From positions 1 to 36,899 of the forward strand of contig JAIRPD010000072.1 of NCBI GenBank assembly GCA_031257195.1: a stretch of 36,899 bases of DNA. The letters are read 5' to 3'. Within the stretch, counting starts at the first letter, position 1, and every line of letters begins with the position of its first letter. Both the position numbers and the translations under genes were made by a program. Shown here piece by piece: positions 23,295 to 29,581 of this stretch. The notes under the pieces were generated by a model that worked only from the letters and a program-made list of their open reading frames with translations, did not search any database and was not told the origin of the DNA. Source of the DNA: Treponema sp. GTDB taxonomy: Bacteria; Spirochaetota; Spirochaetia; Treponematales; Breznakiellaceae.

Positions 23295-24617
23295 ATGTCC
23301 GAAGAATCAATCCGAACTAATCACACCGCCTACAATATGCAGTCCTGGTCCAGGCAAAAGGGACTGAACCCGCTGGTGATTGAAAAAGCGGAAGGAATAT
23401 ACCTGTGGGATTCCTCCGGCAGGCGCTACACCGATATGTCCAGCCAACTCGTCAACATGAACCTGGGTCACGGGAACAAGGCCATTATCGAGGCTGTCAA
23501 AACCCAGGCGGACCGGTACTGCTATGTTTCCCCCTCCTACGCCAGCGGCCCCCGGGGGGAACTGGCCAAACTGCTGATAAGCCTTTTGCCGGATAACTTT
23601 GGCAAAATCTTCTTTACCAACGCCGGGGCGGACGCCAACGAAAACGCCGTCAAAATCGCCCGGATGTACACAGGCCGGAATAAGGTCCTTTCCCGTTACC
23701 GCAGCTATCACGGTTCCAGCTTTGGCGCGGGAAACCTCACCGGCGAGGTCCGGCGCTACGCCCTGGAACCGGGAATTCCCGGCTTTATCCACTTCTTCGC
23801 CCCCTACGTTTACCGGGAGCCGGTGAACTTTCCCTCCGAACGGGAGGCGGCGGACTACTACCTCCACAAGCTTCGGGAACAGGTACTCTACGAGAACCCT
23901 CCCACCATCGCCGCCATCGTAATCGAGACCATCTCCGGGTCCAACGGCGTGGTGATTCCCCCGGAAGGCTATATCCAGGGGATCCGGAAGATCTGTGATG
24001 AATTCGGAATCATGATGATCTGCGACGAGGTGATGATGGGCTTTGGCCGGACGGGGAAGCTCTTTGCCTTTGAGCATTGGGGGGTCAAGCCGGACCTGGT
24101 TACCTTCGCCAAGGGCGTTACCTGCGGCTATGTTCCCCTGGGCGGCGTAGCGGTCTCCTCCAAGATCGCCGAATACTTTGACGACCACCTCCTGTCCTGC
24201 GGCCTTACCTATTCGGGGCATCCCCTGGCCTGCGCCGCCGGGATCGCCTCGGTCAACTACCTTATCGAGACCAGGACCCTGGACAACGTGAACGCCCGGG
24301 GCGCGGAACTGGCGGCGGCCCTGACGGCGCTCAAGGCAAAACACAGAACCGTGGGAGATGTCCGAAGCAAGGGCTTGATGAGCGCCATAGAGCTGGTCAA
24401 GGACAAGAAAACCCGGGAACCCCTGGTTCCCTACGGCCAGGACCCGGAGGGGATCATGAAAAAGGTCAACGGCGAACTGGCAAAACGGGGCTTTATGACC
24501 TTTACCCACGAAAACATGATCATCGCGGCCCCGCCCCTGATCATCACCGGGGAGCAGCTGGCGGAAGAACTGGCCAAACTGGACGAGGTTCTGACCGTGG
24601 TGGACGGGTGGTCCTAG
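23295..24617 (+). CDS. Class III PLP-dependent aminotransferase
   Basis: A 440-residue omega-aminotransferase-type enzyme. The PLP lysine is Lys273 in VTFAKGVTCGYVPLGG, preceded by Asp244 in MMICDEVMMGFGRTG, which contacts the cofactor ring nitrogen. The FTNAGADANENAVK and YHGSSFGAGNLTG blocks are family-typical. AAGGAG (23284-23289) lies five bases before the ATG. It is probably cytoplasmic. The subgroup resembles taurine- or beta-alanine-pyruvate aminotransferases. The convergent neighbour is a phosphonopyruvate decarboxylase, so an aminoethylphosphonate-forming or -degrading role is possible. Some PLP lyases acting on aminoethylphosphonate derivatives also have this fold, so transamination is likely but not proved. 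Confidence 0.85.
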   Translation: MSEESIRTNHTAYNMQSWSRQKGLNPLVIEKAEGIYLWDSSGRRYTDMSSQLVNMNLGHGNKAIIEAVKTQADRYCYVSPSYASGPRGELAKLLISLLPDNFGKIFFTNAGADANENAVKIARMYTGRNKVLSRYRSYHGSSFGAGNLTGEVRRYALEPGIPGFIHFFAPYVYREPVNFPSEREAADYYLHKLREQVLYENPPTIAAIVIETISGSNGVVIPPEGYIQGIRKICDEFGIMMICDEVMMGFGRTGKLFAFEHWGVKPDLVTFAKGVTCGYVPLGGVAVSSKIAEYFDDHLLSCGLTYSGHPLACAAGIASVNYLIETRTLDNVNARGAELAAALTALKAKHRTVGDVRSKGLMSAIELVKDKKTREPLVPYGQDPEGIMKKVNGELAKRGFMTFTHENMIIAAPPLIITGEQLAEELAKLDEVLTVVDGWS

Positions 24618-24640
24618 CCCCGGAACCGCCGCCCCTCCCC

Positions 24641-25780
24641 TTACACCCCCAGGTGCTTTCTAAACCGGGCTGTTATTTCCCCGGGCCGTACCTTGGGCCG
24701 CCCCAGGTTTTCCGGCGCCCCCATGGCGATGGGGACATGAACAAACCGCGGCCCGCCGCTTTGGTCCCAGGCCTGCGCCTCCTCCGCCAGGGCGCCGGGG
24801 GTTTCCGCCCGGACCGCCAGGGAATACCCCAGGGCCCGGGCGGCGCCGGGCCAGTCCACCCCGGAAGAAACGGTAAACTGCCCGCCGGTGGATTCATGGG
24901 CCCGGTTATCAAAGAGGATGTGGAGCATGTCCGCCCCGTACCAGGCGTTTACCGCCAGGGAACCCGTCCGCATCAGGAGGGAGCCGTCCCCATCCAGCGC
25001 GATAATCCGCCAGCGGGGCCGGGCCGCGGAAGCCGCCGGGTCCAGCGCCATGGACAGTCCCAGCCCCAGGGAGGACACACAGCCCAGGGAACCAACCATG
25101 TAGAAGTTCTCCGGCCCGTCCCCCAGTTCGTAGAGTTCCCGGCCCGTAAACCCCGTGGTGGCCAGGAACACCGAATCCACTGGGGCGGCGGCCTTAAGGG
25201 CCCGCAGCATGTCCCCCCGGGAAAAGAGCCGGTCCGGTTCGGGGGAGCCGTTCCGCCGGTCCGGGAGGGACTGTTCCCTCAGGGCCGCCGGGGAAAAAGT
25301 CCCCCGGCGGACGATAAAGAAAAAGCACCGCCCCCGGGCAAAAACCTCCTCCGCCCGGTCAAGCTGGGCCTCCGCCTCCTCGTCGTTGTCCGCCAGGGTC
25401 TCGTGGGCAATCTCCATCGTTTCCAGCAGGGGGGCGGTGATACGGCCCATCAGCTCGTGCTGGGGCTCGTCCGCCAACCCGGGCGCCCCCCGGAGGGAGA
25501 CAAAGCCCAGCAGGGGAATGTGGAAGATCGCCTGGAGGGAGGTGAGGGGAGACGCGGCGTTAACCAGCCCGGAGTTCTGGGTTAAGAGGACGGGCCGGCG
25601 GCCCCCCAGGTACGCCCCCGCGCAGACAGCCGCGGCGTCCCCCTCGTTGGCGGCCATCACAAACCGGCGCTCGTTAATCGCGTAGTTGATGAGGTCCCGC
25701 AAAAACGAGCAGGGAACCCCGCTGTAAAAATCAAAGCCCCGCCGTTTAAGGGCCTCGCCAAACCGTTCCGTCGTAACCAT
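24641..25780 (-). CDS. ppd: Phosphonopyruvate decarboxylase
   Basis: A 379-residue thiamine-diphosphate enzyme that would convert phosphonopyruvate to phosphonoacetaldehyde, the step that makes phosphonate biosynthesis irreversible. Family blocks are GVPCSFLRDLINYAI, ANEGDAAAVCAGAYLGG, TQNSGLVNAASPLTSL, DEPQHELMGRIT, ATTGFTGRELYE and the cofactor/Mg motif DGDGSLLMRTGS, then DNRAHESTGGQFT. The length matches Ppd (about 370-400). GAGG lies seven bases before the ATG. The gene is tail-to-tail with the class III aminotransferase, with only 23 bases between stops. No PEP mutase gene is in the window, which leaves sulfopyruvate decarboxylase as an alternative, though that enzyme is often split into two chains. 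Confidence 0.87.
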   Translation of the reverse strand: MVTTERFGEALKRRGFDFYSGVPCSFLRDLINYAINERRFVMAANEGDAAAVCAGAYLGGRRPVLLTQNSGLVNAASPLTSLQAIFHIPLLGFVSLRGAPGLADEPQHELMGRITAPLLETMEIAHETLADNDEEAEAQLDRAEEVFARGRCFFFIVRRGTFSPAALREQSLPDRRNGSPEPDRLFSRGDMLRALKAAAPVDSVFLATTGFTGRELYELGDGPENFYMVGSLGCVSSLGLGLSMALDPAASAARPRWRIIALDGDGSLLMRTGSLAVNAWYGADMLHILFDNRAHESTGGQFTVSSGVDWPGAARALGYSLAVRAETPGALAEEAQAWDQSGGPRFVHVPIAMGAPENLGRPKVRPGEITARFRKHLGV

Positions 25781-26083: not shown

Positions 26084-26608
26084 TTAGTTTCCCCCCGCCG
26101 CGGGGAGCGTTCCCGCCGTGGGAAGGGCGGGCTGGATCTTTTGTATGGACCGCGCCTTCACCACACGCCGGGAAAAAGATTTTTCCACCGCCCCGGTGAT
26201 CTCCACCATCTCCCGGTTATCCACCAAAACGCCGTTCCATGCCCGCCGGCCAATCTTAACCGTAATCGTTCCGGCCCCATCCCGGAACTCGTAGCGCTCA
26301 TCCCCCAAAGCCTGGACGATGGTTCCCCGTAACCGTACCGGCCTTTTGTCGGCAAAGGCCAGCGCCTCGCCGGTAGTAACCAGGGGGCCGATAAATCCCC
26401 CCGCCGCCATGGGAACAGCGCCCCGGGCCGGCCCGGTTTCCCCGGGAGATAAAGCCGCGGCATCCCACCGCCGCCGCTTGTCGAACCGCTCCCGTTCCTG
26501 TTCCCCGTGGGCGTATACCATTCCCGCGGCCACCCAGAGAAGAACCGCCCCGGCCAAAACCCAGCGCCCCCCGCGGGACTTAACAAATTGAACCACCTTC
26601 ATCCACAT
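26084..26608 (-). CDS. BOF-domain (YgiW/YdeI-type) secreted protein
   Basis: A 174-residue exported protein. After a short basic start and hydrophobic signal segment (about residues 16-34, ending AHG) comes a charged linker, then a bacterial OB-fold (BOF) domain. Family blocks are GGFIGPLVTTGEALAFADKR, VRLRGTIVQALGDERYEFRD, GTITVKIG and VEITGAVEK. Characterised relatives are periplasmic stress proteins, some encoded next to the QseBC two-component system. ATG 26608 is chosen because GGAGG (26614-26618) lies five bases upstream. It is divergent from a histidine kinase gene, with a shared repeat-box region between them, so control by that system is likely. Ligand unknown. Confidence 0.83.
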   Translation of the reverse strand: MWMKVVQFVKSRGGRWVLAGAVLLWVAAGMVYAHGEQERERFDKRRRWDAAALSPGETGPARGAVPMAAGGFIGPLVTTGEALAFADKRPVRLRGTIVQALGDERYEFRDGAGTITVKIGRRAWNGVLVDNREMVEITGAVEKSFSRRVVKARSIQKIQPALPTAGTLPAAGGN

Positions 26609-26678
26609 ATCAACCTCCAAAAAAGATATTCCGGCGGATTTCCTCCGCCCCTTACAGGCTTTTATCCTAGCGGATGGC

Positions 26679-26719
26679 GGTAAACCGCGAATAAACCGGC
26701 GGTAAATTCTTTATAAACC
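26679..26719. promoter_or_regulatory. Four TAAAC boxes at 11-bp spacing (OmpR-class operator)
   Basis: TAAA begins at 26681, 26692, 26703 and 26714, an exact 11-base period. The units are GGTAAACC, AATAAACC, GGTAAATT and TATAAACC. Direct repeats of 11 bp are the usual binding pattern of PhoB/OmpR-family regulators. The array lies between the divergent BOF and kinase genes: just upstream of a TATACT (26756-26761) for the kinase that lacks a good -35, and beside a TAGGAT box for the BOF gene. It probably binds the response regulator encoded at 28892. Confidence 0.65.
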
Positions 26720-26768
26720 CCGCGGCGGCACCCTTCCGGCGGGCAAAATCCAGGATATACTCAAGGAT

Positions 26769-28223
26769 ATGACCATCAAACGCCGTCTGCTGTTCGCCAG
26801 TTTCTCTCTGCTCATAGCTTTCCTGGGGATGGGCGCCGCGGCCGCCCATATCGGCTGGGAATTGTTTGACATCCAGGAAGAATCCGGCCCGGATCCGTTT
26901 ATTTTCTACCGGGCCTTTGACAAAATAGAGGACCTGGCGGAGGAAATCCGGGAAAAGGGCGGCGAAAAACACCTGGAAGACGCCGTCCGCCGGTTTAACC
27001 GGAAACGCTCGTCCGGGGGAATCGCCCTTTCGGTGTTCAAAGGAACCGTCCCCCTGGTGGAATCTCCCCTGCCGCCGCCGCCGGAAATCCTGGACCTGGC
27101 CTTCGCCGCGGAAAACGGCGGTCTGGTTTCCACCGGCAAAAGCGCCGCGTATGTCCAAAAAGCCGGTCCCTACACCCTAGCGCTCTACAATCCCGCCTTT
27201 AACGTACAGCGGCCCGAGTACGATACAAGGCCGGAACTTATGTTTACCCTGCTGTTACTCACCATCGCCGTAATAATCCTTACGGTGGTCCTATATAACA
27301 TCGTCCTTTCCTGGTTTGTTCTCCGTCCCATCGCGGGAACCCTCGAAACCCTGCGGTCTGGAGCCAGCCGGATACGGGATGGCGATCTGGAACACCGGAT
27401 TCCTCACACAACCAAGGATGAATTTCTTCCACTGTGCCAGGCGTTCAACGAAATGGCCGGACGCCTCCTGGAGTCTGTCCGGTCAAAACAAAAGGACGAG
27501 GAGAGCCGCCGGGAACTTATCGCCGGGATTTCCCATGATCTACGCACCCCCTTAACCTCAATTAAGGCCTACGCCGAAAGTCTGGCGGCCAACGTGGCGG
27601 ACACCGGGGAAAAACGGGCCGCGTATCTGGAGATTATACAAATGAAGGCGGATGATATGGAGAAGATCATCCGGCAGCTTTTTCTTTTCTCCAAGCTTGA
27701 TCTGGCGGAGTTCCCGCTTAACCGGGAAATCACCGGAATTAACGGGGAGCTGGCGCTGATTATCGGGGCGATCCGGGAGGAGTTTGAGAAAACCGGGCTT
27801 GATATATACCTGGAAACCGAAGAAACGGAAACCTTTGTCCTCCTGGACGCCGCCCAGTTCCGCAATGTTCTATATAATATCCTGGACAATAGCCGAAAAT
27901 ATAGGACCGCCGAACGGGGAAAGGCGCTTATTTCCAGCCGGGCGGACTGGGATTGGGTATTTGTTACGATTTCGGATAATGGGCCGGGGGTTCCTTCCGG
28001 GACGCTGGAACGGATATTTGAGGTTTTTTACCGGGTCGATTCGTCCCGGAGCGCCGGGCGGGGAAGCGGCCTCGGCCTGGCGATTACCGCCCGGATAATG
28101 AAACATCTGGGAGGAAACGTCCGGGCGGAAAACAGACCGGACGGGGGGCTTTCGATCATCCTTTCCCTACCCAGGATGAAGGGGGAATTCCCCGCCGCCC
28201 CGGTTCCGGCCGCCCTGATTTAA
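26769..28223 (+). CDS. Sensor histidine kinase
   Basis: A 484-residue membrane kinase. TM1 is at about 7-27 and a periplasmic sensor of about 130 residues follows (no known domain recognised). TM2 (about 158-180) is followed by HAMP (about 180-235). The dimerisation domain has the phosphorylated His256 in GISHDLRTPL. The HATPase domain has the N box LYNILDNSRKY, the G1 box ISDNGPGVP and the G2 box GRGSGLGLAI. The organisation matches kinases paired with OmpR-type regulators. The likely partner is at 28892-29581 on the same strand, separated by a convergent HU gene. TATACT ends seven bases before the ATG, so the mRNA may be leaderless. The divergent BOF gene recalls the ygiW-qseBC arrangement. 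Confidence 0.92.
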   Translation: MTIKRRLLFASFSLLIAFLGMGAAAAHIGWELFDIQEESGPDPFIFYRAFDKIEDLAEEIREKGGEKHLEDAVRRFNRKRSSGGIALSVFKGTVPLVESPLPPPPEILDLAFAAENGGLVSTGKSAAYVQKAGPYTLALYNPAFNVQRPEYDTRPELMFTLLLLTIAVIILTVVLYNIVLSWFVLRPIAGTLETLRSGASRIRDGDLEHRIPHTTKDEFLPLCQAFNEMAGRLLESVRSKQKDEESRRELIAGISHDLRTPLTSIKAYAESLAANVADTGEKRAAYLEIIQMKADDMEKIIRQLFLFSKLDLAEFPLNREITGINGELALIIGAIREEFEKTGLDIYLETEETETFVLLDAAQFRNVLYNILDNSRKYRTAERGKALISSRADWDWVFVTISDNGPGVPSGTLERIFEVFYRVDSSRSAGRGSGLGLAITARIMKHLGGNVRAENRPDGGLSIILSLPRMKGEFPAAPVPAALI

Positions 28224-28232
28224 CGGGAACGG

Positions 28233-28613
28233 TTACTGCGTAATCTCGAAAGAAATGTCATCCAGACTTCGTTTTAGATCAACGCTGGGCAGAAAAACCA
28301 GCTTTACCCCCTTAATGTGGTGGGCGTTCAACTCATCCGGCGTTGTGGTACCGTCGCTGGTAACCGAAACCCGGAAGGTTCCAAAACCTTCCAGTTTAAT
28401 GCTCTGTCCCAGCTTAAGGAAAATGGGCATCACGTCCATGAGATTACTCAGGACGCTCTGCACATCGCCCAGGGAAAGCGCCGATCTTCCCTCGATTTCC
28501 CGGGCTATTTCCTGGAGACCCACGTTCCCCGCCGATTCCTGGGTTAAGTACCACTTGGTTAAAGCCGCGTTCAGGGGGTTCTTCCGCTGAATTTTCTTTA
28601 ATTTTACCGCCAT
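28233..28613 (-). CDS. HU-family DNA-binding protein (HU-HIG type)
   Basis: A 126-residue small nucleoid-type protein. The sequence MAVKLKKIQRKNPLNAA, then the helix LQEIAREIEGRSALSLGDVQSVLSNL and KLEGFGTFRVSV, matches the HU-HIG branch, which is longer than canonical HU (about 90 residues). The C-terminal extension (about residues 95-126) contains VKLVFLPSVDLKRSLDD. It should bind and bend DNA. AAGGAG lies five bases before the ATG, and a near-perfect promoter stands upstream. The gene is convergent with the histidine kinase, with only nine bases between stops, and lies between kinase and regulator genes. A run of CCGG-centred repeats sits just upstream of its promoter. Confidence 0.9.
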   Translation of the reverse strand: MAVKLKKIQRKNPLNAALTKWYLTQESAGNVGLQEIAREIEGRSALSLGDVQSVLSNLMDVMPIFLKLGQSIKLEGFGTFRVSVTSDGTTTPDELNAHHIKGVKLVFLPSVDLKRSLDDISFEITQ

Positions 28614-28891: not shown

Positions 28892-29581
28892 ATGAAAAAG
28901 AGGGTTTTGATTATCGAGGACGACGCCGCCATCGCCGGGATTGAGCGTGATAATCTTGAGGTGAACGGCTTTGACGCGGAGATCGCCTGGAATGGAAACG
29001 ACGGACTGCGGATGGCCTTGACCGGAGCCTACGATCTTTTGCTGGTAGACTTGATGCTTCCGGGAATAAACGGCTTTGATTTATGCGCGAAGCTGAGAAG
29101 CCAACTGGATGTGCCGCTGATTATGGTAACGGCCAGGGGCGAGGATATTGACAAAATCCGGGGGCTGGGACTGGGGGCCGACGATTATGTTACCAAGCCT
29201 TTTTCGCCCGCCGAGCTGGTGGCCCGGGTACGGGCGCATATCGCCCAGTATGAGCGGCTGACCGGGGAAAAGGGTAAAACCCGGGAACTGGTTTTTGGCC
29301 GCCTTCGGGTGAATCCGGCGGCGCGCCGGGTTTTTGTGGACGAAAAGGAAGTTATCCTTGCCCAAAAGGAGTACGAACTGCTGCTCTTCCTGGTTCAGCG
29401 TCCCCATACAGTGTTTGACAAGGAGGCGTTGTACGGTCATATTTGGGGCGAGGACCGGTATGGTGATCTGAAGACCGTGGCTGTTCACATCCAGCGGCTT
29501 CGGGAAAAGATCGAGGCCGACCCTTCTTCTCCCCGGTACGTTCAAACAGTGTGGGGGGCGGGCTACCGGTTTACGCCCTAG
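28892..29581 (+). CDS. OmpR-family response regulator
   Basis: A 229-residue two-domain regulator. The receiver domain (1-120) has acidic residues at 10-11, phosphoacceptor Asp53 in LLLVDLMLPG, Thr/Ala in VTARG and Lys102 in YVTKPFSP. The C-terminal winged-helix domain (about 130-229) has the family pattern LTxxEYELL (here LAQKEYELLLFL) and RLREKIEADPSSPRYVQTVWGAGYRF. It binds DNA as a dimer at direct repeats, such as the 11-bp boxes at 26679-26719. The likely partner kinase is at 26769. No clear Shine-Dalgarno is near the ATG. The distance from the kinase gene and the intervening HU gene imply that it has its own promoter. Confidence 0.93.
   Translation: MKKRVLIIEDDAAIAGIERDNLEVNGFDAEIAWNGNDGLRMALTGAYDLLLVDLMLPGINGFDLCAKLRSQLDVPLIMVTARGEDIDKIRGLGLGADDYVTKPFSPAELVARVRAHIAQYERLTGEKGKTRELVFGRLRVNPAARRVFVDEKEVILAQKEYELLLFLVQRPHTVFDKEALYGHIWGEDRYGDLKTVAVHIQRLREKIEADPSSPRYVQTVWGAGYRFTP

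Follow-up and report, generated by a model that had tools for sequence, protein, structure and literature searches.

The 36,899-nt stretch of Treponema sp. DNA analysed here (the window) carries an array of four short boxes between a BOF-family gene and a divergent sensor histidine kinase gene. Judged from its sequence, this array very probably serves as operator for an OmpR/PhoB-family response regulator whose gene lies at 28892; the regulator would be under the control of the kinase at 26769 and would activate the BOF gene. A preliminary description of this DNA had reported an exact TAAAC array with an 11-bp period between these two genes. The location is confirmed by domain matches (Table 1), and the period is indeed exactly 11 bp over four boxes, but only the boxes at 26681, 26692 and 26714 are TAAAC, whereas the third box at 26703 is TAAAT.

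Table 1. Features around the array in the window.
Feature	Position	Strand	Basis
BOF gene (YgiW/YdeI/VisP-type periplasmic OB-fold), predicted main target	26084..26608	-	ATG at 26608 behind GGAGG; Pfam BOF PF04076, E=1e-20
-10-like TAGGAT, 10 bp past the last box on the BOF side	26664..26669	-	Equal gap at C49 and in relatives
Operator (predicted), four GTTTAY half-sites with 11-bp period	26680..26718	-	GTTTAT 26713-26718, ATTTAC 26702-26707, GTTTAT 26691-26696, GTTTAC 26680-26685; model R1 E=1.3e-8
Possible kinase -10 TATACT, lacking conserved spacing to the array	26756..26761	+	Weak, inferred
Sensor histidine kinase (HAMP-HisKA-HATPase), presumed regulator partner, divergent from BOF	26769..28223	+	Domain matches
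OmpR/PhoB-family response regulator, recognition helix GDLKTVAVHIQRLREK, predicted array binder	28892..29581	+	Response_reg and Trans_reg_C domains

Geometry and direction of the array

Between 26600 and 26780 the word TAAA occurs four times, each time as a box of the array. No three-box match was found in 300 Markov-2 windows, and shuffling the intergenic sequence 200,000 times never produced a four-box match. The half-sites follow each other head to tail at a spacing of 11 bp, and OmpR/PhoB-family operators have at least two such half-sites at 10-11 bp. The array also lies at the -35 position at a fixed distance from a -10-like element, another feature of these operators. The assignment to OmpR/PhoB-class direct repeats thus stands, with four half-sites corresponding to two tandem dimers.

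As far as its sequence tells, the array is a directional operator pointing to BOF, because of the box order on the minus strand and the gap of exactly 10 bp to TAGGAT. This layout is shared by a second array on contig C49 of the same genome (2.54 Mb, 135 contigs), and TTTAY-N6-TTTAY-N10-TAnnnT occurs in this genome exactly twice, at these two sites (reversed control 0). The BOF transcript would start at about 26657, which leaves a leader of about 50 nt before the BOF gene. A search for a sigma-70 promoter in front of BOF found none.

Two further observations concern the neighbourhood. An HU-like gene (HU-HIG, PF18291) at 28233-28613 on the minus strand, opposite to kinase and regulator, separates the two; in relatives they are adjacent or overlap. 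Farther away, an aminotransferase-like gene lies beside a gene for a TPP enzyme resembling phosphonopyruvate decarboxylase (23295-25780), a possible phosphonate-related pair.

The pattern TAAAY-N6-TAAAY-N6-TAAAY was likewise found only in the window and at C49:3006-3043 (reversed-pattern control 0), in agreement with the small regulon that had been predicted. The C49 array also consists of four boxes and ends in ATTTAC-N10-TATGCT. R1, a sequence-only model derived from 18 sites, scored C49 with E=4e-11 and the window with E=1.3e-8, both belonging to its training set, while the next best match in the genome had E=0.24. The regulon motif given previously, NNTAAACCNNN, is better written as GTTTAY every 11 bp, followed by N10 and TAnnnT. 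On contig C38 (L006 1501-1560), a beta-barrel-like ORF is preceded by three TTTA boxes at the 11-bp period; this repeat was set aside, since it lacks the -10 spacing.

The C49 site adjoins a TAXI-TRAP transporter operon but faces in the opposite direction, and the side to which it points has no convincing gene and a flat codon-position GC. A link between the C49 array and the operon is therefore uncertain. This layout at C49 argues to some extent against the preferred reading, activation of BOF by the regulator at 28892. Possibly a target gene has been lost there. The 360-bp stretch into which the C49 array points (own genome L005 2622-3190) contains a small ORF only and has a non-coding-looking composition.

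Sites in related genomes

As the genus is represented by a single genome, the comparison covered 200 genomes of the same family. Searching these blindly for arrays of three TAAAY boxes yielded AT-rich noise and, in addition, sites in G025 and G141 that share contigs with kinase orthologues, which had been located independently of the box search. A position-weighted scan of 37 loci gave 27 sites with at least 20 points versus 0.0 in Markov-1 shuffles and 0 in reversed sequence, the sites and the scoring rule having been chosen partly after examples had been seen. The aligned sites of the relatives have the boxes, the 11-bp period and the 10-bp gap in common. Absence of the period in relatives had been named beforehand as a refuting result; the period is conserved. 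When the gap was scanned without the 10-bp rule, the main peak was found at 10 (ten matches) and a second one at 8 (eight matches), the latter mostly arising where a further box of the array was taken for the -10.

The next gene in reading direction mostly begins between a few and about 90-100 nt downstream of the site. Predicted targets in the relatives are MFP-RND-TolC pumps, ABC exporters, outer-membrane proteins and, often, the kinase-regulator operon itself, which the array either heads or adjoins. The array is found with TolC-kinase-regulator in G152, with ABC exporter-kinase-regulator in G075, with MFP-RND-TolC-kinase-regulator in G074 and G059, and with an operon of a 131-aa protein, DUF4405, kinase and regulator in G141. 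Of two sites in G025, the first is divergent from the kinase, matching the window, and the second precedes an ABC operon. In G002 (contig C46, L281 3009-5733) a BOF gene, whose product is 41% identical to that of the window, is again divergent from a kinase-regulator pair. There, however, the site has two boxes and faces the kinase, and a separate promoter, TTGACA-N17-TATAGT, serves BOF; this speaks against the preferred reading. Footprinting of the upstream regions of the 30 top BOF-family matches revealed no array, so the array goes with the regulator rather than with BOF. As a separate observation, two arrays of three GTTTAT boxes lie in a TolC/RND cluster of G178 (contig C206, L100 6073-7586) without a -10 at 10-bp spacing, beside a different kinase-regulator pair whose regulator has 38% identity and a nearly identical helix, TVAVHIQRLRKK.

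These layouts bear on the question whether the array serves both divergent promoters, activating BOF in one direction and the kinase, by autoregulation, in reverse orientation. The preliminary description had placed the array upstream of two activated promoters. In this form the statement is not supported: the boxes are directional, the conserved 10-bp gap is present on the BOF side only, and the kinase -10 candidate has no such gap. Moreover, in the same divergent layout of G025 the kinase has its own TATAAT. On the other hand, the distance from the array to the start of the kinase gene downstream is about 50-90 bp, relatives have the same operator before the kinase-regulator operon, the TRAP operon as the sole clear gene at C49 is on the reverse side, and PhoP boxes in reverse orientation are known from Salmonella promoters (PMC3335776). 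Service of both promoters is thus conceivable, if somewhat doubtful, and control of the kinase from the window array is unproven.

Association with the regulator and its recognition helix

R1 matches were obtained in 45 of the 200 family genomes, representing 24 genera. Apart from AT-rich words being common, nothing suggests a chance or compositional repeat without function; with this observed conservation and no matches in shuffles and reversed controls, such an explanation is practically negligible.

Orthologues of the regulator have 51-63% identity and stand well apart from the group that follows, which has about 42%. They are present in about 39 genomes, including three known only from fetched loci. 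An R1 match (E<1e-5) was found in 25 of 39 genomes with an orthologue versus 8 of 161 without (p=2e-15), and with the training genomes left out in 10 of 24 versus 8 of 161 (p=5e-6); both p-values are optimistic, as the genomes are related. Not every genome conforms to the preferred assignment of the array to the regulator at 28892: 14 of the 39 genomes with an orthologue had no match at the threshold, perhaps because assemblies are fragmented, filters were strict or sites have diverged, and in eight matched genomes no orthologue was detected.

Variation within the recognition helix provides a second line of evidence. The helix of the orthologues follows, with few exceptions, the pattern GD-x-x-T[VI]-x-x-HI-x-R[LI]R-x-K. 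A change from TVAVHI to TV[RK]EHI is accompanied by a change of the boxes from GTTTA to GTTGA. Regulators with TV[RK]EHI have GTTGA boxes at 7 of 7 loci, while at 8 of 9 loci other helices occur exclusively with GTTTA boxes (p=0.0014 for the association); the exception is contig C126 of G144, and a TVREHI regulator is encoded in that genome too. This covariation is what direct reading of the boxes by a 28892-type regulator predicts. The TV[RK]EHI proteins may form one clade, so it may represent one evolutionary event.

The earlier proposal of the protein at 28892 as the array's regulator gains from both lines of evidence, and the array is predicted to be its binding site. Members of the OmpR/PhoB class typically bind 10-11-bp direct repeats, so another regulator of the same genome might be considered. 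Including 28892, however, the genome encodes three Trans_reg_C regulators. Of the other two, one is PhoB-like and follows a PstB-like gene, and the second differs in its helix; neither contains TVAVHI. Together with the orthologue co-occurrence and the helix-box covariation, both of which favour the neighbour, this makes binding by another regulator highly improbable.

Comparison with known systems and proposed mechanism

In PhoB promoters, direct repeats of 11 bp substitute for the -35 and lie a short distance upstream of the -10. The window array resembles this pho box arrangement and the DNA-binding domains are similar, but the box letters differ and the genome has the separate PhoB-like regulator. 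Among solved structures, the nearest DNA-binding domain is that of SaeR (E=3e-17), slightly ahead of PhoB. SaeR of the SaeRS system of Staphylococcus aureus binds GTTAA-N6-GTTAA, and several promoters under its control contain three or more half-sites (PMC5083920). The 11-bp head-to-tail repeat is shared and the recognition helix is similar (TVNVHIHRIREK versus TVAVHIQRLREK), whereas the core in the window and in relatives is GTTTA rather than GTTAA, and targets, phylum and sensor are different.

In its letters the array nearly coincides with the enteric PhoP box, (T/G)GTTTA-N5-(T/G)GTTTA, with which it shares the 11-bp period and the direct orientation of GTTTA facing the -10. GGTTTA is present at three of the four window boxes; the PhoP box, in contrast, has only two. 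Membership in enteric PhoP, raised by these letters, is unsupported by profile matches: the best NCBIfam matches of the window regulator are YycF, MtrA and PhoB, all below their cut-offs, and no PhoPQ PhoP model is among the best 25. Similarly, the window and G002 contig C46 have a BOF gene beside a kinase-regulator pair as in QseBC/YgiW-type loci, but profile matches lend QseB membership no support, no QseB/QseC model being among the best NCBIfam matches. BOF proteins (YgiW/VisP/YdeI) are established targets of two-component systems. In Vibrio cholerae, VC1638/VC1639 activates the BOF protein VCA0732 on polymyxin B (PMC5636140). The likeness of the window to this system and to the ygiW-qseBC loci is one of gene content, a kinase-regulator pair with a periplasmic BOF (YgiW/VisP) protein, and the Vibrio target is, unlike BOF in the window, unlinked to the pair.

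Beyond the spirochaetes, the named proteins most similar to the regulator come from the Bacillota species Paenibacillus oryzae and Clostridium zeae (63%). R1 found weaker sites near some of the Bacillota relatives, including a Bacillus and a Paenibacillus locus. On the Clostridia contig L208, GTTTAT, CTTTAT, TTTTAT, GTTTAT, N10 and TACAAT directly precede an MFP-RND-type efflux operon (E=2e-5). We therefore consider, tentatively and at slightly less than even confidence, that the regulator represents an uncharacterised subfamily of Treponema-group spirochaetes and Bacillota (at most 63% identity). It would have one operator grammar (GTTTAY repeats, N10, -10), efflux and envelope targets shared in two phyla, and a specificity code apparent from natural helix switches, in which GTTTA becomes GTTGA as AVHI gives way to [RK]EHI.

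From the observed sites and their geometry we infer the following course of binding and activation. The kinase at 26769 would control the regulator at 28892. The phosphorylated regulator would bind head to tail as two tandem dimers to the four GTTTAY half-sites on one face of the DNA. Its promoter-proximal dimer would take the place of the missing -35, 10 bp upstream of TAGGAT, and the bound regulator would recruit RNA polymerase for transcription of the BOF envelope gene. Orientation and position alone do not give the sign of control, and the operator might repress BOF instead. However, PhoB and PhoP promoters classically have their activator boxes where the -35 would be, and with no -35 element present repression appears improbable. 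For the activation of BOF that we favour, the signal is probably envelope or toxic-compound stress, because the sites of the relatives precede mainly efflux and envelope genes.

The kind of operator is well known, but the window instance, the regulon and the helix-box pairing seem to be undescribed; no described OmpR-family operator or regulon of Treponema was found in the open-access literature searched. An operator that can be read directly from the DNA leads to a testable regulon of efflux pumps, exporters and envelope proteins without genetics, and the paired change of helix and box would make the protein-DNA specificity of OmpR/PhoB regulators testable by simple residue swaps.
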